Shown here: piece after piece, positions 37,103-46,197 of the stretch
Layout: the number at the start of each line of letters is the position of its first letter
Position numbering within the stretch: position 1 is the first letter of the stretch
Assembly (NCBI GenBank): GCA_019056435.1
Contig: CP077641.1
Location: forward strand, 434,001 to 498,000
Direction: 5' to 3'
Length of the DNA: 64,000 bases
Source of the DNA: Stutzerimonas stutzeri
GTDB taxonomy: Bacteria; Pseudomonadota; Gammaproteobacteria; Pseudomonadales; Pseudomonadaceae
Made by a program: the position numbers and the translations under genes
Notes under the pieces: model-generated
The model's input: the letters and a program-made list of their open reading frames with translations, nothing else
Database searches by the model: none
What the model was told of the DNA's origin: nothing

Positions 37103-37115
37103 GTTATAACGTAAC
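37103..37115. promoter_or_regulatory. Zur-like palindrome upstream of zrgA
   Basis: GTTATAACGTAAC is an imperfect palindrome of the GTTAY-nnn-RTAAC kind seen in gammaproteobacterial Zur boxes. It ends 23 bp before the zrgA start. Zur represses zinc uptake genes when zinc is plentiful. The match is by eye only. Confidence 0.65.
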
Positions 37116-37138
37116 CCTCACTGCACTGGAGCCCGCTC

Positions 37139-37714
37139 ATGCGCCCGTTTCTGATCGCCCTGCCCTTCGTTCTTCTGTCGAACCTGACCCTTGCGGCCGA
37201 ACACAGCCACGATCACGACCATGATCATCACGATGAACACGGTAGCCTGGGTGCTCACGAGCACGGCGTCGCCGAGCTGGACGCGGCACTGGACGGGTCG
37301 ACGCTCGAGCTCGAGCTGCGCACGCCCGCGATGAACCTGGTCGGATTCGAGCATGCCCCGAGCAGCGATGCCGACAGACGCAAGCTCGCCGATGCTCGCG
37401 CCCACCTCGAGCGGCCCGATGCGCTGTTCGGATTGCCCGCTGGCGCTGGCTGCACGCTGACGGATACGGATCTCGAAAGCCCGCTCTTCGAGCAAGACAC
37501 TGCGCACGATCACGACGCCGAGCACGGCGACCACAGCGATATCCATGCAGCCTACCGCTACAACTGCACCGCCCCGGATGCGTTGCAAGCCCTTGACCTG
37601 AGCGGCCTGTTCAAGACCTTTCCAGGGACCGAAAAAATCCAGGCGCAACTGATCGGCCCCAACGGCCAACGCGGCGTGCAATTGAACAAGGGTAATGCCC
37701 GCGCATCCTTCTGA
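37139..37714 (+). CDS. zrgA: ZrgA-type (DUF2796) periplasmic zinc-binding protein
   Basis: The 191-aa precursor has a signal peptide (MRPFLIALPFVLLSNLTLAA) followed at once by a histidine/aspartate-rich stretch (HSHDHDHDHHDEHG, about 23-36) and a second one near 120-138 (HDHDAEHGDH). The rest is the DUF2796 fold. The family binds zinc in the periplasm and supports zinc acquisition in Vibrio and pseudomonads. A Zur-like box lies just upstream, and ABC transporter genes follow, so this is the first gene of a zinc operon. Confidence 0.87.
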   Translation: MRPFLIALPFVLLSNLTLAAEHSHDHDHDHHDEHGSLGAHEHGVAELDAALDGSTLELELRTPAMNLVGFEHAPSSDADRRKLADARAHLERPDALFGLPAGAGCTLTDTDLESPLFEQDTAHDHDAEHGDHSDIHAAYRYNCTAPDALQALDLSGLFKTFPGTEKIQAQLIGPNGQRGVQLNKGNARASF

Positions 37715-37779
37715 CCCTCGGCTGCCCGGGTACACGCCGAGGCAGTACACTGGCGCCCCCTGACGATAGATGGCTTTCG

Positions 37780-38487
37780 ATGACACCTGCGCTTCTCGAA
37801 CTCCAGGACCTCGGCTTTTCCTGGCCGGGCCAGCCGGAACTGCTGGATATCCCCAGCTTCCGGCTGGAGGCCGATCAGAGTCTCTTTCTCAAGGGCCCTT
37901 CGGGTAGCGGCAAGACCACACTGCTCGGGCTCATCGGCGGTGTGCAGAAGGCCAAGCGCGGGCAGGTCCGGCTGCTCGGGACGGATCTGGGCGCGCTGCC
38001 CGCCGGCGCCCGCGATCGCTTTCGGGTCGACCACACCGGCTACATCTTCCAGCAATTCAACCTGCTGCCTTTTCTGTCAGTGGCGGAAAACGTCCATCTG
38101 CCGTGCCACTTCTCTGCGTTACGTTCCAACCGGGCCAAGGCATGCCATGGAGGTGTCGAACAAGCCGCCGCGCACCTGCTCATGCACCTCGGGCTGTCCG
38201 CGGAGCTGCTTGAGCGACGCGCCGATTCGCTGTCGATCGGCCAGCAGCAACGGGTGGCCGCCGCGCGCGCACTGATCGGCCAGCCCGAGCTGGTCATCGC
38301 CGACGAACCCACCTCCGCACTCGATGCGGACAGCCGCGAGGCGTTCATCCAGCTGCTGTTCGACGAATGCCGGGCGGCCGGGGCGAGCCTGCTGTTCGTC
38401 AGTCACGACCAGAGCCTGGCCCCGCTGTTCGACCGCCACCTGTCGCTTGCCGAACTCAACCGAGCCGACCGGCCAGCGGAGATCTGA
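37780..38487 (+). CDS. ABC transporter ATP-binding protein (LolD/MacB-like)
   Basis: The 235-aa protein has Walker A GPSGSGKTTLLG near residue 39, Q-loop FQQFNLLPF, a variant signature LSIGQQQRVAAARAL (Ile for Gly) and Walker B LVIADEPTSALD. It is of the LolCDE/MacAB class that works with FtsX-fold permeases. It follows zrgA by 65 bp and lies 2 bp before its permease. In P. aeruginosa the equivalent gene is zinc-regulated. Confidence 0.88.
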   Translation: MTPALLELQDLGFSWPGQPELLDIPSFRLEADQSLFLKGPSGSGKTTLLGLIGGVQKAKRGQVRLLGTDLGALPAGARDRFRVDHTGYIFQQFNLLPFLSVAENVHLPCHFSALRSNRAKACHGGVEQAAAHLLMHLGLSAELLERRADSLSIGQQQRVAAARALIGQPELVIADEPTSALDADSREAFIQLLFDECRAAGASLLFVSHDQSLAPLFDRHLSLAELNRADRPAEI

Positions 38488-38489
38488 CC

Positions 38490-39755
38490 ATGCCCCTGCT
38501 GCGTATCGCCCTGGCGAGTCTGAATAATCGTCGCTTCACCGCCCTGCTCACGGTGTTCGCCATTGCCCTGTCGGTGTGCTTGCTGCTCGCCGTCGAGCGC
38601 GTGCGAACCGAGGCACGCGTCAGCTTCGCCAGCACCATCAGCGGTACCGACCTCATCGTCGGCGCGCGCTCCGGCTCGATCAACCTGCTGCTTTATTCAG
38701 TGTTTCGCATTGGCAACGCGACCAACAACATCCGCTGGGACAGCTTCGAGCACTTCGCCAATCACCCGCGGGTGAGCTGGGCGATTCCGATCTCACTGGG
38801 CGATTCGCACCGCGGCTATCGCGTCATGGGGACCAGCAGCGCCTATTTCGAACATTACCGCTACGGCCGCAAACAGTCGTTGGAACTGGCCGAAGGCCAG
38901 GTCTTCGGCGCTGATCCCTTCGACGTGGTGCTCGGCGCCGAAGTCGCCGAGGCGCTTGGCTATGCGCTAGGCGACGAGCTGGTGCTGGCGCATGGGGTCG
39001 CCACCGTCAGCCTGGTCCAGCATGATGACAAGCCCTTCCGCGTCGTCGGCATCCTCAAACGTACCGGCACGCCGGTGGACCGGACCCTGCACATCAACCT
39101 CGCCGGCATGGAGGCCCTGCACATCGACTGGCAGAACGGCATGCCCGCTCGCGGGGCGGCACGAATCGATGCCGAGCATGCCCGTCAGATGGACCTGCAG
39201 CCAAAGCAGATCACCGCCTTCATGCTGGGACTGAACAGCAAGATTGCCACCTTCACGCTGCAACGCGAAATCAATGGCTATCGAGGCGAGCCACTGCTCG
39301 CCATCCTTCCGGGCGTGGCGTTGCAGGAACTCTGGAGCCTGATGGGAACGGCAGAAAAGGCGCTGTTCGTGGTCTCGCTGTTCGTCGTGCTGACGGGCCT
39401 GATCGGCATGCTCACAGCCATCCTCACCAGCCTCAACGAGCGCCGTCGCGAAATGGCTATCCTGCGCTCGGTTGGCGCCAGGCCTTGGCATATCGCCAGC
39501 CTCCTCGTTCTGGAAGCTTTCGCGCTGGCGCTGGCCGGGGCGTTGCTGGGGCTGATGCTGCTGTATCTGTCCCTGGTCCTGGCGCAAGGGCCGGTGCAAG
39601 CCCACTATGGCATGTATCTGCCACTGGCCTGGCCAAGCCTCTACGAATGGTCGCTGCTGGGCGCTATCCTGCTGGCTGGCCTGCTGATGGGTGCCGTGCC
39701 TGCCTGGCGAGCGTATCGCCAATCGCTGGCCGACGGCCTGTCGATCCGACTATGA
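38490..39755 (+). CDS. FtsX/MacB-fold ABC permease
   Basis: The 421-aa protein has TM1 near 15-35, a long periplasmic domain (about 40-280, MacB_PCD type) and three C-terminal membrane helices (about 295-320, 345-370, 385-410) with the FtsX motif LTSLNERRREMAILRSVGARP. Such permeases use mechanical motion to move lipoproteins or periplasmic substrates rather than pump ions. It has the ATPase gene 2 bp upstream and overlaps the next gene's ATG region. Confidence 0.88.
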   Translation: MPLLRIALASLNNRRFTALLTVFAIALSVCLLLAVERVRTEARVSFASTISGTDLIVGARSGSINLLLYSVFRIGNATNNIRWDSFEHFANHPRVSWAIPISLGDSHRGYRVMGTSSAYFEHYRYGRKQSLELAEGQVFGADPFDVVLGAEVAEALGYALGDELVLAHGVATVSLVQHDDKPFRVVGILKRTGTPVDRTLHINLAGMEALHIDWQNGMPARGAARIDAEHARQMDLQPKQITAFMLGLNSKIATFTLQREINGYRGEPLLAILPGVALQELWSLMGTAEKALFVVSLFVVLTGLIGMLTAILTSLNERRREMAILRSVGARPWHIASLLVLEAFALALAGALLGLMLLYLSLVLAQGPVQAHYGMYLPLAWPSLYEWSLLGAILLAGLLMGAVPAWRAYRQSLADGLSIRL

Positions 39756-39763
39756 GGTACTCC

Positions 39764-40275
39764 ATGCCACGCCTGCTCCCCGCTGCGCTGCTCGCCCTGC
39801 TCGTACCCTTCGCGTCGGCCGAGGTGCGCGAGCTGCAGTGGTCCGATCTGATACCCGCGGATGCTCCGCCACCGCCCCCACCCGTGGCCATGCACGACAT
39901 GTCGCAGCTGGCCGATGCACTGGCGGCCGAAGCGGGGCCTGCTGCCGCCCAACAATCGCCCGCCGAGCCGGTGGTCGAAGCGCTCGACGGTCAGCAGGTG
40001 AAACTGCCGGGGTATATCGTGCCGCTGGACATGACCGAGGATGGGCGCGTCACCGAGTTCCTGCTGGTACCCTACTTCGGCGCCTGCATTCATGTGCCAC
40101 CGCCGCCTTCGAACCAGATCGTGCATGCCACCAGCGAGCTGGGCGTGAAAATGGATGCGCTCTACCAACCCTTCTGGATCGAAGGCCCCTCAGGGTCGAG
40201 CACGCCAGCAGCGAGCTTGCCGAGGCCGGTTATCGCATGGCCGCGCAGAAGATCTATCTGTACGAACTGGAATAG
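39764..40275 (+). CDS. DUF3299 periplasmic protein, one-base frameshift
   Basis: The 170-aa precursor (after correction) has a signal peptide (MPRLLPAALLALLVPFASA) and the DUF3299 core: LQWSDLIPADAPP, QQVKLPGYIVPLDM, LVPYFGACIHVPPPPSNQIV. The frame slips at the C-run 40186-40189, before LRVEHASSELAEAGYRM and the end KIYLYELE. I chose the ATG at 39764, which has GAGG at ideal spacing, over one at 39752 that overlaps the permease stop. It is the last gene of the zinc operon; function is unknown. Confidence 0.82.
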
Positions 40276-40356
40276 CGCGTTTCATGAAAACAGCTGGAGC
40301 CATGGCGAGCATGCCCAGCGCTTGAAGCACGCGCCAGGCATTGCACCCTGCCCGCT

Positions 40357-41449
40357 TCAGCGAACGCTGGCGACCTGGCGCTCGCGCTCGAAGTTCAGCT
40401 CACCTTCAGCCCACTCGCGCCAGGCGCGTACCTTGCGGCGCTCGGCCCCGGCGCGCTCGGCCTGGCGTAACGCATCGAGACCGGCCTGCCAACGCGATTG
40501 CTCCAGCTCCAGCTGCGCGACATTGAGCCAGAACTTGGCCGAGCCTGATTGCGCAGCCAGCTCGCGGTAAATCCGCGAAGCCGCCTGACGATCGCGCGCC
40601 TGCCACCAGAGCAACCCCAGCCGCTCCTGCCGCGTCGCCGAGATCGGCAGGAGCTTGGCCTCGAGCATGCCTTGCAAGAGCCTGGCGCCCTGCCAGGGCT
40701 GGCCTGCCGCCCCCGCGAGCAAGACAAGGTTATCCAGTTCGGATTCGCTGAAGCTCAACCCTTTGGTGTGGGCGGCGCGCAGGGTGGCGAGCGCCTTGTC
40801 TTCATCGCCCGCCAGCTGCTGCAGCCCGGCGAGCTGACGCCAGCGCTTGGCATCGTTGGGCGCTCGGGTCAGCAGCCGACGCTGCCAACGCTCGGCGGCG
40901 TCATAACGCTTGAGCTCGGCATTCGCTCCCACCAGAAACTGCAACCAGGTCTCGCTGGCGTTGGAGTTGGCCTGCACGTAGCGCTCCGCCAGTGGCAGTG
41001 CCTTCGCGTGCTGCCCAAGCCCCTGATAGGCCTGAACGAGCATTTGGAGAACCTCTTCGCTGGGCTTTTGCTGTGCACCCAACAGACTGACAACCTTCGC
41101 GTAGCGGCGCTCGGCAAGGTTCAGTTTGGCGAGGTTCAGACGTTCATTGGGCAGCATGGCGTCGTCGAGCTTGCCACTGTCGACCGCCTTTTCGAGCAGC
41201 TCCAGCGCCTGCCGGTTGTTGCCTTCGGCCCAGGCCAGGTATGCACGGCTGCGCCACAACAAGGCTTCCTCCAGGCTGCCGGTCTTCGCCTCCGCCTGGG
41301 TCAGCGCCTGGCGCGCCACGCTGTAGTCACCCTTGTCCTGGGCGGACCGGGCGCGCTCGAGCGCCTTGAATACGGCCGGATCGATGCTCTGCGCCGCCTG
41401 CGCAGAGGCCATGAACGATAAAAAAAGCCAACAGCAGTAAAGGTCGCAT
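40357..41449 (-). CDS. TPR-repeat periplasmic protein of the TonB cluster, one-base frameshift
   Basis: From the ATG at 41449 the protein opens with a signal peptide (MRPLLLLAF), then an extra T in the T-run facing 41420-41426 shifts the frame; after correction it continues LSFMASAQAAQSID. The mature part, about 340 aa, has tandem TPR-like helical pairs (for example ALERARSAQDKGDYSVARQA, LQMLVQAYQGLGQHAKALP). The corrected length is 363 aa. Its ATG overlaps the tonB stop (TGATG), so it ends the operon. A scaffold role for the TonB complex is an inference. Confidence 0.75.
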
Positions 41450-42162
41450 CAGCGTTCTCCTTGCAGTCGGAAGTGAAGGGTCTTGACGGCTTCCCGCGAT
41501 ACCGCTGCGCCATTTTCAGTGCGCGGGGCGAAGCGCCAGCGCGCCGCGGCGCGGCGCGCCTCACGATCGAATACGTTCGGCGGCGAAGCTTCCATGACGC
41601 GGATGTTTTCCACCCTGCCGGCCGGCGTGATGGTGAACGCCAGCTTGATGTGGCCCTCGATGCCGCGCTGCCGCGCCCGGTAGGGGTATTCCGGGCGAAC
41701 ATCGTTCAACGGCATCACTTCCTGCTCCGGCCCGCCTGAACGCCCGGCATCGGCCGCCGCGGGAGCCGGAGCCGGAGCCGGTGGCGCGGCAGCCGGCTCT
41801 GCGGCGGCGAGGCCGGACAGGCTCGGAGCCGGGGCGCTCGCCACCGCCATGCCGGTATCGATGTTCGGTACCGGCAAGTCGAGCTTGGGCAGGTTGGCAT
41901 TCGGCGTAGCCATGTCGGGCGTCGGCGGGGTCGGCGGTTGCGGTGTTTTCGGCTGAGGCGGTTGAGGCGCCTGCTGCCGGGAGCGCGTGGCCGTGCTTTC
42001 GCTGCGCGTGTCCATGCGCACGAAGTTGGCGATCGCGATGGGATCCTCGACGACGTCGTTGCGCGGCGGACTGACCATGCTCAGCATGAGCACGAACAGC
42101 AGCACCGCGACCACGCAGGCGCCGATGAAGGACAGCCCGACACGGGTCAGTCCGCTCACCAT
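41449..42162 (-). CDS. tonB: TonB-like energy transducer
   Basis: The 237-aa protein has an N-terminal membrane anchor (about 10-32), a proline-rich spacer (PQPPQPKTPQPPTPPTP near 66-82 and PPAPAPAPAAA near 126-136) and a C-terminal TonB domain (YPYRARQRGIEGHIKLAF, RRAAARWRFAP). It links the inner-membrane motor to outer-membrane receptors. It overlaps exbD (TGATG) and the TPR gene, within a six-gene operon. No TonB-dependent receptor lies in the window. Confidence 0.9.
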   Translation of the reverse strand: MVSGLTRVGLSFIGACVVAVLLFVLMLSMVSPPRNDVVEDPIAIANFVRMDTRSESTATRSRQQAPQPPQPKTPQPPTPPTPDMATPNANLPKLDLPVPNIDTGMAVASAPAPSLSGLAAAEPAAAPPAPAPAPAAADAGRSGGPEQEVMPLNDVRPEYPYRARQRGIEGHIKLAFTITPAGRVENIRVMEASPPNVFDREARRAAARWRFAPRTENGAAVSREAVKTLHFRLQGER

Positions 42163-42575
42163 CACTGCACTCCCGAACTGGCGGCGAGCGCCACGTCCTG
42201 CACGCCGGCCTGGCGTGCCTGATCCATTACCTGCACGACCAGACCGGTGCGGGCGTCCTGATCGGCCTGCACGACCACGGCGCCTTCCGGCTGATCGACG
42301 CGCAGCCGCTCAACATGGGCGCGCACGCTGCGTACGTCGACGGCCTGCTTGTCGATCCAGACCTGTCCGTCCGCGGTCACCGCGATAAGGATGTTGCCCT
42401 TGTCCTGCGCACTGGCGGTTTCCGCCTGCGGGCGCTGGACTTCGACACCCGACTCCTTGATGAAGGAGCTGGTGACGATAAAGAAGATCAGCATGATGAA
42501 GACCACGTCGAGCATCGGCGTCAGATCGATGCCGGTGTCTTCTTCCTGCTGATAGTGGTGGCGACGCATACGCAT
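42162..42575 (-). CDS. exbD: ExbD-like biopolymer transport protein
   Basis: The 137-aa protein has one membrane segment with the essential Asp (DLTPMLDVVFIMLIFF, near residues 17-32) and a periplasmic ExbD domain (ILIAVTADGQVWIDKQAVD). It forms the proton channel with ExbB. Start at 42575 (MRMRRHHYQQEED); an ATG six bases later is possible. Confidence 0.92.
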   Translation of the reverse strand: MRMRRHHYQQEEDTGIDLTPMLDVVFIMLIFFIVTSSFIKESGVEVQRPQAETASAQDKGNILIAVTADGQVWIDKQAVDVRSVRAHVERLRVDQPEGAVVVQADQDARTGLVVQVMDQARQAGVQDVALAASSGVQ

Positions 42576-42585
42576 CCTGTAATCC

Positions 42586-43131
42586 TCAATCGTGACGCAG
42601 CTGGTCAGCCAGCCGGTCGAGCGCCTGCCGCGAGAGTCGTTCGAGACGCGCCAGGCTGAACAGTCCAGTAATCGCCAGCACCATCCCGGCCATGGTCGGC
42701 AGGGTGGCCTGCCACACGCCAGCGGCCATGCCGCGCGGGTTGCCGGTGCCATTGAGCGCCAGCACGTCGAAAACCGCGATCATGCCGCTGACGGTGCCGA
42801 GCAGCCCCAGCAGCGGATACATCGCCACCAGTGTCTTGCTCATGCGCAGCGGCCCGGCGAGCTGCTGCTGGGCCTGGGCCAGCCAGGCGCTGCGCACGGC
42901 GCGCTGCCAGCTGCCCGGCTCCGAATCGAGACGGGCCCAGGCCTGCTGACGCGTCTCGACCCAGCGCGGGAAAACGCGGCGCATGTACCAGATCCGCTCG
43001 AACACGAGCGTCCAATAGAGCACGCACAACGCGGCCAGCGCCCACATGACCGCACCGCCCGCCGCCATGAAATCGAGCAGCGCATAGGCGCCGTCGACCA
43101 GGCTCAGCCAGCGCAGATGCAGATCAGTCAC
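42586..43131 (-). CDS. exbB: ExbB-like MotA/TolQ protein
   Basis: The 181-aa protein has three hydrophobic segments (about 22-45, 98-122 and 140-165) and the ExbB/TolQ signature LVAMYPLLGLLGTVSGMIAVF. It is the second of two MotA/TolQ/ExbB-type proteins in the operon and overlaps its neighbour by 8 bp. It should carry the proton-motive force to TonB together with ExbD. Confidence 0.9.
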   Translation of the reverse strand: MTDLHLRWLSLVDGAYALLDFMAAGGAVMWALAALCVLYWTLVFERIWYMRRVFPRWVETRQQAWARLDSEPGSWQRAVRSAWLAQAQQQLAGPLRMSKTLVAMYPLLGLLGTVSGMIAVFDVLALNGTGNPRGMAAGVWQATLPTMAGMVLAITGLFSLARLERLSRQALDRLADQLRHD

Positions 43132-44470
43132 GGCGTGGCGTCCCCGATAGGTGAAGGGCGATCAGGCCGGCGCTCTGCTGTTCGAGCAGCTGGATCAGCG
43201 ACTTGCTGCGGCTGGCGAGCAGGCTATGCAGGAACAGCAGCGGAATCGCCACCACCAAGCCCAGCACCGTGGTCACGAGGGCCTGGGAAATACCGTCGGC
43301 CATCAACCGCGAATCGCCGCCGCCGCTCTGGGTGATCGCCTGGAAGGTGACGATCATCCCGGTGACGGTACCGAGCAGCCCAAGGAGGGGCGCAACGGCA
43401 CTGAGCAGTTTGAGCAGCGGCTGGCCGCGTTCGAGGGGCGGAGTTTCCTGAAGGATCGCCTCGTCGAGCTTCAGCTCCAGCGTTTCCAGATCCGCCAGTT
43501 GCGGCTTGGGCCCCAGCACACCGATAACACGGCCCAGGGGATTGTCATCCCGCGGCGAGCTCAGCTCCGCCATCTGCCGGCCAACGGCACGGCCGACGCC
43601 GGACAGGTAGACCATACGCCAGAGGGCGATCAGCAAACCGACCACGCCCAGCGCGATGATCACCCAGCCAACCAGACCACCCTGCTGAACACGGTCCCAG
43701 AGCTGCGGCTGACGCTGCAATTGCGCCAGCAGCGAGCCGCGGCTGGGGTCGATCAGCAGGTTCGCCAACGCATCGTTGCTGCTCAGGTAGTCGTTGACCT
43801 GGCCGATACCGGAAGGCTGTCGCGCAGGCGCCAGCAGCTCGCCGGCATCGCTGTCATAGCGCAGGAAGGCGTCATCGGTGTAGGCGGCGAAGCCTCCGAC
43901 ACGCAGCACCTGTTCGGTGCCGCGCTGACCGTCGGCATGCACTACCGGCAATTCGACCTGTTCGATTCGCCCGCTTGCGGCAAGATCTTCGAGCAATGTC
44001 ATCCAGAAGCTGTCGAGATCCTCGGCCGAGGGCAAGGCACGACTTTCAGCCAGCGCACGCAGCCGCTCCAGGCGATCCGGGTACTGCACGTTGAGCAGAC
44101 TGTCCTGCCACTGCCCGGCAATGTCGCCCGCACTCTGGCGCACGACGCCGAACAGTTCGCCGAGATGGCCCACGCGCTGGGCCAGAAGTTTCTCCTGCTC
44201 GGCGAGCTCGGCTTCCTGACGATCGAATTCGGCCTTGAGGCGCTCGGCCTCGGCCTTCTGTGCCTCGAGCGCGGCCGTCGCTGTGGCCAACAGCTGTGCC
44301 TGTTCGCCACGGTTCTGTATGAATTGTTGTTCACGCGCCTGCATGGCCTCGACCTCCGCCGCGCGCTCGCTGCGGATGCGCTGCAACAGCTGGTCAGGGC
44401 TCAGCGGCTCGGCAGCCAAGGCGAAAACCGGCAGGCAGCCGATCAGCAACGATGTCAGCAGGCGGGTCAT
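43124..44470 (-). CDS. TtpC-type MotA/TolQ/ExbB protein with periplasmic domain
   Basis: The 448-aa protein has a signal peptide (about 1-19, SLLIGCLPVFALAAE), a long coiled coil (about 25-110, EAQKAEAERLKAEFDRQEA), a periplasmic middle domain and three C-terminal membrane helices with AVAPLLGLLGTVTGMIVTF. This is the layout of TtpC, the extra ExbB-like component of Vibrio TonB2-type systems. It overlaps the DUF3450 gene by ATGA. Its presence sets this TonB system apart from the usual three-gene exbBD-tonB set. Confidence 0.87.
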   Translation of the reverse strand: MTRLLTSLLIGCLPVFALAAEPLSPDQLLQRIRSERAAEVEAMQAREQQFIQNRGEQAQLLATATAALEAQKAEAERLKAEFDRQEAELAEQEKLLAQRVGHLGELFGVVRQSAGDIAGQWQDSLLNVQYPDRLERLRALAESRALPSAEDLDSFWMTLLEDLAASGRIEQVELPVVHADGQRGTEQVLRVGGFAAYTDDAFLRYDSDAGELLAPARQPSGIGQVNDYLSSNDALANLLIDPSRGSLLAQLQRQPQLWDRVQQGGLVGWVIIALGVVGLLIALWRMVYLSGVGRAVGRQMAELSSPRDDNPLGRVIGVLGPKPQLADLETLELKLDEAILQETPPLERGQPLLKLLSAVAPLLGLLGTVTGMIVTFQAITQSGGGDSRLMADGISQALVTTVLGLVVAIPLLFLHSLLASRSKSLIQLLEQQSAGLIALHLSGTPRRD

Positions 44471-45236
44471 TGCGCAGCCTCCTTGGCCAGGGTCTTCACA
44501 GGGAGTTCGAGCCAGCCCGGTGCCTGCTGCTGTCGAGCAATCGCGATCGCCTTGGTGAGCGGCCGGCGCGCACTGCCGTCGAGCACTTCCCAGGCTTTCG
44601 CCTGCGGGTTCCACCAGCCGCTCTCATGCGCGTCCAGGGTCTGGTAATAGAGCATCGTGCGTCCGAGGCGGAGGAACTCGACGCTGCGGCTACCGCCTTC
44701 GGTCGGCAGTTCACCGCGCCAGGCTTCCAATGTGCGGCCGTAGTCGCTTTCGATCTGATAAGCCTCCAGGATACGGCGGTATTTCTCCGCCAGGCTGACG
44801 TCCGCACGCCCCTGCATGTCTTGCAGGCTCGCCAGACGGTCGGCCCGCTCTTCCGGCAGGAACGGCAGATCGGCGGCAATGAATTCTTCGAGCACCTCGA
44901 TCATCCGTCCCATCTGGGGAGCGACCGCTTGCTGGGTCCGCTCGATGCTATCGAGCTGGCGCTGGAAGCCGTCGAGCTCCTTGCGCTGCGCGTCGGTGAG
45001 TTCGGTCAATTGAGCGTTGTATGCCTTCAGCGCTTCGGCCTGCTGCACGGCATTGCGGTAGTCGTTGAGCATTTGCCGGGTCGTGTCGTCGAGCTGCTCG
45101 ATGCGCGCCTGGGAAGCCTGGGCTTCAGCGGCCAGCCGCTGGCTTTCGTTCAACGCATCATCCAGGGGGCGGCCTGCAGAGGCAGGCATAACGACAAGAG
45201 CACGCCTGGCAGCAAGCGAGTCGGGTGCAGATTCAT
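44467..45236 (-). CDS. DUF3450 periplasmic coiled-coil protein, one-base frameshift
   Basis: From the ATG at 45236 a signal peptide (MNLHPTRLLPGVLLSLCLPL) leads into a one-base slip in the G-run facing 45165-45169; after correction the protein is 256 aa, the DUF3450 norm. The body is a long coiled coil (LAAEAQASQARIEQLDD, LTELTDAQRKELDGFQRQL) and then LPFLPEERADRLASL and the conserved YYQTLDAHESGWWNP. DUF3450 is typically paired with TtpC in TonB2-type clusters. It is the first gene of the operon, 36 bp below a Zur-like box. Confidence 0.83.
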
Positions 45237-45272
45237 GCGGAGTGGACCCTCAGTTCACAGCAGCTTTAGAGC

Positions 45273-45285
45273 GTTATGTTATAAC
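45273..45285. promoter_or_regulatory. Zur-like palindrome upstream of the TonB cluster
   Basis: GTTATGTTATAAC is a perfect GTTAT-nnn-ATAAC palindrome, 36 bp before the corrected DUF3450 start. It is a closer match to the Zur pattern than the site upstream of zrgA and suggests the TonB operon is repressed by zinc. It is a prediction by eye. Confidence 0.7.
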
Positions 45286-45428
45286 ACTTCCAAGACGGCA
45301 ACGCAGCCATCCGAGTGAGCGTCATTGACAGTCTCGCCGCAGCGGATTCAGAAAGAGAAACATTATCATCTGCAAGCAGAGGACAACGCAACCTGCTCAA
45401 ACGTGCCGCGCGGCCGCCGCTGCGTTTA

Positions 45429-45442
45429 TTGAGCTGGATCAA
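45429..45442 (+). promoter_or_regulatory. Anr/FNR-like box upstream of oprG
   Basis: TTGAGCTGGATCAA matches TTGATnnnnATCAA except for one base and lies 68 bp before the oprG start. OprG of P. aeruginosa is induced at low oxygen by Anr, which supports the call. Confidence 0.7.
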
Positions 45443-45510
45443 AATGGTCCTGATGCAGGGCTCTACCATGGGCGCCATCGCAACACACCCTGTCTCGATG
45501 GAGTTCCAAT

Positions 45511-46197
45511 ATGCGCAAGACCCTGTTTACCGCGTCCGTGCTGGCCATGGCGCTCACTGCCCCCTTCGCCCAGGCCCATCAGGCAGGTGATGTCATCGTT
45601 CGTGCGGGTGCGGTAACCGTAGATCCGCGAGAAGACAGCAGCGATATCTACGTTGGCGCGTTGTCGACCAGCGTCCCGGGAGCCAAGGCGACATTGGACA
45701 GCGACACCCAGCTGGGCCTCAACTTCGCCTACATGTTGACGAACAAGGTCGGTATCGAACTGCTCGCCGCAACGCCATTCAGCCACGACGTCGGTGTCGC
45801 CGGCATGCCAGGCGGCTTTTCTGGGCTGAACGGCAAACTGGGCGAGCTCAAGCACCTGCCGCCAACCCTTAGCGTTGTGTACTACCCCCTGGACAGCAAA
45901 TCGGCGTTTCAACCTTACGTGGGCGCCGGCATCAACTACACCTGGTTCTTCGATGACAAGCTGACCAGCGAGGCCGAGAACAAGGGCTTTAGCGGGTTGG
46001 ACATGAAGGACTCATGGGGCTTGGCCGCCCAGATCGGCATGGATTACATGCTGACCGACAACATGATGGTCAACGCGCAGGTGCGCTACGTCGACATCGA
46101 CACCACCGGCACCACCAGCTATGGCGGAGCCAAGGTCAAGGTCGACGTGGATGTCGACCCGATGGTCTACATGGTAGGTCTGGGCTACAAGTTCTGA
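45511..46197 (+). CDS. oprG: OprG/OmpW outer-membrane protein
   Basis: The 228-aa precursor has a signal peptide (MRKTLFTASVLAMALTAPFAQA) and an eight-strand OmpW barrel: AGDVIVRAGAVTVDP, LGLNFAYMLTNKVGIELL, AFQPYVGAGINYTWFF, and the C-terminal phenylalanine in YMVGLGYKF. It lets small hydrophobic molecules cross the outer membrane. The Anr-like box upstream fits oxygen control. It stands between the TonB operon, read divergently, and the epimerase gene. Confidence 0.92.
   Translation: MRKTLFTASVLAMALTAPFAQAHQAGDVIVRAGAVTVDPREDSSDIYVGALSTSVPGAKATLDSDTQLGLNFAYMLTNKVGIELLAATPFSHDVGVAGMPGGFSGLNGKLGELKHLPPTLSVVYYPLDSKSAFQPYVGAGINYTWFFDDKLTSEAENKGFSGLDMKDSWGLAAQIGMDYMLTDNMMVNAQVRYVDIDTTGTTSYGGAKVKVDVDVDPMVYMVGLGYKF

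Follow-up and report, generated by a model that had tools for sequence, protein, structure and literature searches.

The locus described here raises the question of which metal signal governs a TonB motor operon that converges with an operon for a periplasmic zinc-binding protein, and whether the two operons work together. It lies in Stutzerimonas stutzeri (GCA_019056435.1, contig CP077641.1), within the stretch of 64,000 nucleotides that was analysed and is here called the window (C1:434001-498000 of a genome of 4,733,426 bases, or 4.73 Mb, in five contigs; G000 in the comparisons). The zrgA operon (plus strand, 37139-40275) and the TonB operon (minus strand, 40357-45236) face each other across 81 bp. 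The original prediction, made from the letters of this DNA, placed both operons under Zur and took the motor to be dedicated to the zinc module. We favour another answer, which we consider probable. The operon would encode a TonB2-type motor with a Fur operator that is conserved, and probably ancestral, in Pseudomonadaceae, accompanied here and in nine other genomes of the genus by a Zur operator on a promoter-leader cassette exchanged between species; starvation for either metal would then raise the motor. The elements concerned, in window coordinates, are as follows.

37103-37115, plus strand: Zur-type box GTTATAACGTAAC, 23 bp upstream of the zrgA start codon.
37139-37714, plus strand: zrgA, PA4063-type His-rich periplasmic zinc-binding protein (DUF2796; Pfam PF10986, E 7e-55; PDB sequence match to PA4063, 7ahw, E 7e-53).
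37780-38487, plus strand: ATPase of an ATP-binding cassette (ABC) transporter, LolD/MacB-like, PA4064 type (Pfam ABC_tran).
38490-39755, plus strand: permease of FtsX/MacB fold, PA4065 type (Pfam FtsX and MacB_PCD; start taken from reading frames).
39752-40275, plus strand: DUF3299 protein, PA4066 type (Pfam PF11736 on the first part; frame broken near the 3' end in the assembly).
40357-41449, minus strand: TPR protein in the ttpD position (Pfam TPR; frame of the 5' end broken in the assembly).
41449-42165, minus strand: tonB of the TonB2 operon (Pfam TonB_C).
42162-42575, minus strand: exbD (Pfam ExbD; start taken from reading frames).
42586-43131, minus strand: exbB (Pfam MotA_ExbB).
43124-44470, minus strand: ttpC-type long ExbB-like protein (Pfam MotA_ExbB on residues 328-432 of 450; sequence match to ExbB structures).
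44467-45236, minus strand: DUF3450 protein in the ttpB position (Pfam PF11932, E 1e-85; signal-peptide part in a different frame in the assembly).
45273-45285, minus strand: Zur-type box GTTATGTTATAAC of the TonB operon, 36 bp upstream of the operon ATG.
45286-45354, minus strand: spacer from the Fur-like site to the Zur box, part of the exchangeable promoter-leader cassette (43% pairwise identity in six chosen lineages; mosaic identities).
45355-45370, minus strand: Fur-like site GATGATAATGTTTCTC, conserved putative operator of the TonB operon in the family (sequence scoring and conservation).
45511-46197, plus strand: ompW, divergent neighbour sharing the intergenic region (Pfam OmpW, E 1e-67; NCBIfam OmpW under its cut-off).

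All ten genes named for the two operons in the original prediction are present with Pfam matches, in the layout and with the gap claimed for them. The TonB operon contains the gene set of a TonB2 system (DUF3450, TtpC-like long ExbB, ExbB, ExbD, TonB and TPR, on one strand), in the same order in 60 of 60 fetched loci, and the opposite operon that of the PA4063-4066/ZrgA type, with zrgA, ATPase, FtsX/MacB permease and DUF3299 in order and a Zur box before zrgA. The 60 loci were fetched as whole blocks, and all ten genes were matched in 59 of them. In NCBIfam the zrgA product scored under the ZrgA cut-off, and the top scores of the ATPase (DevA, LolD and FtsE) were each under theirs. The nearest named relatives of the DUF3450 protein are mostly from Stutzerimonas (14 loci), the best being that of S. 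zhaodongensis (94% identity, residues 8-240); no relative was found for it by sequence in the PDB. A terminator scan between the two operons found none. The Fur-like site, the divergent ompW and three broken reading frames had been overlooked in the original prediction.

A Zur-motif scan of the whole genome, proposed earlier as a check, found GTTATNNNATAAC in exactly three places: one precedes the TonB operon, one a dksA-like gene and one a zinc-type ABC transporter. By chance, about 0.6 places would be expected from base composition. The core GTTATAACATAAC is present in all three places, on one strand, and the full 13-mer would be expected about 0.01 times. In its position, 36 bp before the start, the box of the TonB operon resembles those of zrgA (23 bp) and of the dksA-like gene (31 bp). 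The zinc-type transporter has an ATPase followed by an ABC-3 permease, and the ATPase scored best against the zinc ATPase AztA, under the cut-off. The zrgA box is a one-mismatch site; since sites with at most one mismatch are at background genome-wide (35, against 32 for the reversed control), its assignment rests on conservation. For the comparison of loci we used 56 genomes of the genus, 54 of them with DUF3450, from which 51 loci were fetched (G131, G134 and G158 were left out), together with two overlapping samples from other genera, of nine loci and of 17 loci (seven other genera of the family), and a Zur box was counted when at least nine of the ten fixed positions were kept. By this measure 50 of the 51 genus loci have the zrgA box, as do 9 of 9 loci in the smaller sample from other genera. 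The boxes predicted before the two operons were correctly placed and both are of the Zur type, so that zinc co-control of the two operons in this genome is likely.

Across the 56 genomes, 135 sites matching GTTATAACRTAAC were found, against three for the reversed control, with zero to seven sites per genome. When 40 loci around chosen sites, a subset of the 135, were fetched, the neighbouring genes formed a DksA cluster (19 sequences) and a cluster of zinc-ABC ATPases (12, the copy of this genome included), with small sets or singletons of FolE2, HisI, type-B L31 and TonB-dependent receptors besides spurious-looking reading frames; a Zur-like regulator and an AmiC-like amidase also stand beside such sites, both under their family cut-offs. 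The palindromic motif is thus common to established kinds of Zur target within the genus; that these are known kinds of target is stated in the accessible text of two reviews (PMC6103462; PMC10393844). Chance as the origin of the box was rejected on three counts: the three exact places, the genus total set against its control, and the conservation of the box within a variable spacer, described below. Added sites of the motif stand before folE2, zur-like, AmiC-like amidase, type-B L31, hisI and receptor genes in L224, L233 (G119) and L234-L238 (G145).

That no receptor gene is present, as was noted originally, is true of the locus, but the genome does have a receptor with a Zur-like box of its own. 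The close Zur-type box AATGTTATACCGTAACATT, at C1:3680662 (L305:1483-1516; C1:3680644-3680677), lies 17 bp before a TonB-dependent receptor gene, whose product is a candidate partner of the TonB2 motor.

The operator that is conserved before the TonB operon is the Fur-like one. The motif GATGATAATGnTTCTC / GATGATAATGNTTCTC occurs at one place per genome in 52 of the 56 genus genomes, and in 51 of these, by comparison of places, it lies a short way upstream of DUF3450. For G158, the site was found at C1:237, whereas DUF3450 is matched in part at C1:4682208-4682747; the two lie perhaps across the start of a circular contig. The exact motif is missing from four genomes: in G120 and G128 it takes a variant form, and the other two, G125 and G137, lack a DUF3450 match. 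GATAATGnTTCTC is found in 49 of the 51 fetched genus loci and a variant in the other two. In the seven other genera sampled from the family the TGATAAT core is present in 17 of 17 loci, the best site of L032 being GATGATAATGCTTCTC, other than the core listed. The two g7 loci, and to some extent g18, have a version of it with the stronger palindromic symmetry of a Fur box (for example GATAATCGTTATCATT). Because it is kept in g7, g11 and g18, where DUF3450 was not found beside zrgA, the site belongs with the TonB operon. A search of this genome for GATAATNRTTNTC gave 35 matches, against eight for the reversed control, and among 24 loci read by eye the genes close to one-mismatch matches include a ferritin-like gene and those of a Lys/Orn monooxygenase and an Fe2+ transport protein. 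The regulator acting at 45355-45370 is probably Fur.

The Zur-type box of the TonB operon has a quite different distribution. Ten of the 51 genus loci (G000, G031, G096, G157, G064, G138, G152, G155, G103 and G127) carry it, in each case downstream of the Fur-like site and ahead of the start codon, and no box was found there in the other 41, in 9 of 9 loci of the smaller other-genus sample or in 17 of 17 of the larger one; G129 and G154, with a match at eight of ten positions further upstream, were excluded from the count. In the ten loci the Fur-like site is at -194 to -201 from a fixed point of the gene, against -112 to -132 in the other genus loci. A mosaic comparison of 17 chosen genomes, in 21 chosen pairs, gave a spacer of 115-119 bp with the Zur box and of 35-37 bp without it, a difference of about 80 bp. 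The leaders read MNxxPTRLxA in the former and MQAxIPRLLA in the latter (that of G000 is out of frame), and spacer and signal-peptide codons change as one block. When six of the ten loci were compared, one per chosen lineage, identity was 100% in the Fur-like site, 93% in the Zur box, 43% and 58% in the spacers and 86% in the leader, and the boxes of G000 and G103 are identical within a spacer of 42% identity. As judged from such alignments, the Zur box on the TonB operon is under selection.

Exchange of the whole block is seen directly in two of the 21 pairs. Between G096, which has the Zur box, and its tree neighbour G135, which has none, identity is 93% both in the 150 bp that precede the Fur-like site and across the gene body, but drops to 28% for the spacer and to 61% for the leader; G096 and G064, both with the box, are 63% identical before the Fur-like site, 78% in the spacer, 96% in the leader and 88% in the gene body. 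On the operon tree, presence of the box requires at least six changes, three of them forced by starred branches; shuffled labels required 9.4 changes on average, and only one of 500 shuffles as few as six. The cassette is thus clustered but patchy, which fits exchange by homologous recombination, or repeated loss with exchange, and the notion of horizontal regulatory transfer is at hand for such a pattern. By eye, the class B leaders (MNxYPTRLxA) look nearer the outgroup leaders than do those of class A.

These findings divide the original claim of zinc co-regulation, which is likely to hold for this genome but meets a TonB operon without a Zur box in 41 of the 51 genus loci. In close relatives the two operons appear largely independently regulated, an outcome that the original prediction had named as refuting it, because the Fur-like operator is conserved and the Zur box is found only in the ten. 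A TonB operon controlled purely by Zur and dedicated to zinc was rejected, the Fur-like site being conserved and the Zur box patchy.

The mechanism that we propose would involve two promoters. Lack of iron would free a distal promoter controlled by Fur, and lack of zinc a proximal one controlled by Zur, so that either starvation would raise the motor, composed of TtpB-TtpC-ExbB-ExbD-TonB-TtpD. The motor would energise TonB-dependent receptors encoded elsewhere, its presumed partners, to presumed benefit. The cassette, made up of the 115-119-bp spacer and the signal-peptide codons, would move between species by homologous recombination. The convergent zrgA/MacB-type operon would be a separate conserved Zur target which receives the same zinc signal, and contact between it and the motor would not be needed. 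A more extended version, in which recombination, with the conserved Fur site and the ttpB body as its anchors, spreads the cassette among Stutzerimonas species and so turns a TonB2 motor under iron control into a two-metal (Fur plus Zur) motor that drives zinc receptors, has in our estimate an even chance of being right.

Several observations weigh against the two-metal explanation. Zinc-loaded Zur, presumably bound below a promoter controlled by Fur, could block read-through, and the response would then follow an AND rather than an OR logic. A scan for sigma-70-like promoters at 45200-45560 found none. The Fur-like site is degenerate, with 13 to 14 of 19 positions agreeing with the Fur 19-mer consensus, and 13 places in the 64-kb window, on both strands, score 13 or more; GATAATGNTTCTC, allowing one mismatch, gave five matches in this genome against seven for the reversed control. 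Because this 19-mer score is weak and GATAATGNTTCTC is not above its control, the assignment to Fur rests on conservation. In 27 loci of the order outside the family (one of 28 was dropped for its short upstream part) the Fur score was no better than that of shuffles, and the best Zur match was eight of ten positions. The operon tree, with at least three forced changes and no direction to them, does not separate gain of the cassette from its loss. Finally, there are three other TonB_C proteins in the genome, and the TonB2 motor need not be the one used for zinc. By eye, their genes lie near PhoX- and ExbB-like frames, beside a glutathione-synthetase-like frame and by a TolB-like frame; the copy linked to gshB is presumably the one named TonB3.

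The alternative that survives best, though we consider it unlikely, is that the adjacency of the operons reflects inherited synteny only, the TonB2 operon being an iron system in which the Zur-type box is silent or marginal. The Fur-like nature of the conserved operator and the lack of a Zur box in 41 of 51 genus loci are what one would expect from it. It does not account for a box that is 93% conserved within a spacer of 43% identity, nor for the identity of the box in G000 and G103 across spacers which agree at 42%, and the same 13-mer marks the dksA-like and zinc ABC genes.

Somewhat less probable still is the proposal that the motor is dedicated to, and mechanically works with, the ZrgA/FtsX-type ABC module in periplasmic zinc handling, as the original prediction had it. 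This could draw on the conservation of the arrangement, which a comparison across genomes confirmed. In a survey of 119 genomes of the family, scored by profile matches over the cut-off, ZrgA was found in 114 and DUF3450 in 50; of the latter, 47 also have ZrgA, and in 34 of these 47 the convergent operons are adjacent, with the two markers at most 13 kb apart. The 13 exceptions are G006 (g7), G039 (g11) and 11 g18 genomes, and for some of them a contig break is possible, since only two of the 13 have both genes on one contig. A dedicated motor would also agree with the finding that 10 of 51 genus loci bear a Zur-type box before each operon. However, the same adjacency goes with a TonB operon lacking the Zur box in the other 41 and in 9 of 9 loci of other genera, and the conserved operator of that operon is Fur-like. 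Furthermore, each operon occurs without the other in intact form. G125 and G137, both of the genus, have zrgA and no DUF3450 match, and G149 (L182) keeps the TonB operon but has no match for ATPase, permease or DUF3299, an internal stop in zrgA and a weaker box; its zrgA operon has decayed. In the order outside the family, with the best 125 of 153 DUF3450 genomes compared with 101 ZrgA genomes, none of 54 genomes with both markers has them within 13 kb, and the nearest pair among the matches listed is 19.6 kb apart (G178). A recent report proposes that in Pseudomonas aeruginosa the PA4064-65 ATPase and permease make up a MacB-type exporter for pyochelin/cobalt, and its accessible text names no part of a TonB motor (PMC11481552). 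An obligate partnership of the two operons was therefore rejected, each being found without the intact other and no adjacency being seen outside the family among the matches listed, and mechanical coupling of ABC transporter and TonB motor is left unsupported. In G080 (L152) about 4.4 kb of added DNA lies between the convergent operons.

The least probable alternative, that the GATGATAATG site serves the divergent ompW and leaves the TonB operon here under Zur alone, can point to the common intergenic region in the window, but the site stands about 110-132 bp from the DUF3450 domain in loci without the insert and is present in g7, g11 and g18 loci where DUF3450 was not found beside zrgA.

The exact inner gene order of the Vibrio TonB2 operon is ttpB2-ttpC2-exbB2-exbD2-tonB2-ttpD2. 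Motors of the TonB2 (TtpC-type) class are characterised by energising siderophore receptors and by their need for ttpB and ttpD. According to the accessible text on Vibrio vulnificus, its TonB2 system is iron-induced and has a putative Fur box ahead of ttpB2, and it shares with the operon described here the same six gene kinds, with DUF3450 first and TPR last (PMC6957404). The locus analysed here differs from it in the added Zur-type box and in the convergent zrgA operon, and zinc does not figure in the main text of that report. PA4063-PA4066 of P. aeruginosa and the zrg genes of Vibrio cholerae are of the same kinds as those of our zrgA operon and are described as Zur-controlled, and conserved Zur boxes before PA4063 homologues in Pseudomonas were already reported (PMC10393844); in the parts accessible, descriptions of these systems name no convergent TonB2 operon, unlike the locus studied here. 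A further related system is the tonB1-exbB1-exbD1 operon of Acinetobacter baumannii, a TonB motor which likewise bears a Zur box, is induced by the zinc chelator TPEN and was earlier reported to be induced by an iron chelator (PMC3516566, accessible text). It has three genes, without ttpB, ttpC and ttpD, and no exchangeable promoter-leader cassette is described for it there. TonB1 of P. aeruginosa was also connected with zinc, in the accessible part of a further report (PMC12838275).

Each half is already known: Vibrio has a TonB2 system with a putative Fur box, Zur control is described for the zrgA/PA4063 operon, and in Acinetobacter a TonB operon that responds to iron also bears a Zur box. 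In a literature search that mostly did not extend to subscription papers, nothing was found on a TtpC-type TonB operon controlled by Zur, and no paper joined Zur, TtpC and TonB. What is new is the joint presence of Fur-like and Zur-type operators on a TtpC-type motor, patchy by way of an exchangeable promoter-leader cassette. TonB motors have been studied mostly through iron. Since a single short promoter cassette sets neighbouring genomes apart, in front of TonB2 operons that are otherwise very much alike, both the part of a TtpC-type motor in zinc uptake and the joining of iron and zinc signals at one promoter become testable. If our explanation is true, the locus would be a clear case of a regulatory input swapped by recombination while the genes stayed unmoved, and species with and without the cassette would be natural experiments in the rewiring of a molecular motor.

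A separate matter is the state of the reading frames at the locus. Three frame breaks lie within a stretch of about 5 kb, at 40190-40275 (3' part of DUF3299), 41412-41449 (5' end of the TPR gene) and 45165-45236 (signal-peptide part of DUF3450). Of the 50 other genus loci fetched, all 50 have in-frame leaders for the TPR and DUF3450 genes, and 46 have the expected YxL(E)-like end of DUF3299 in frame; G149, which has no DUF3299 match, is one of the remaining four. Indels of the assembly are probably the cause, and the breaks will mislead automatic annotation of all three genes.

Between the Fur-like site and ompW (window 45371-45510), TTTTGATCCAGCTCAAT was seen on the minus strand, and it is present in relatives too. 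We take it to resemble an Anr/FNR box, for ompW, and iron, zinc and oxygen signals may share the intergenic region of ompW and the TonB operon.

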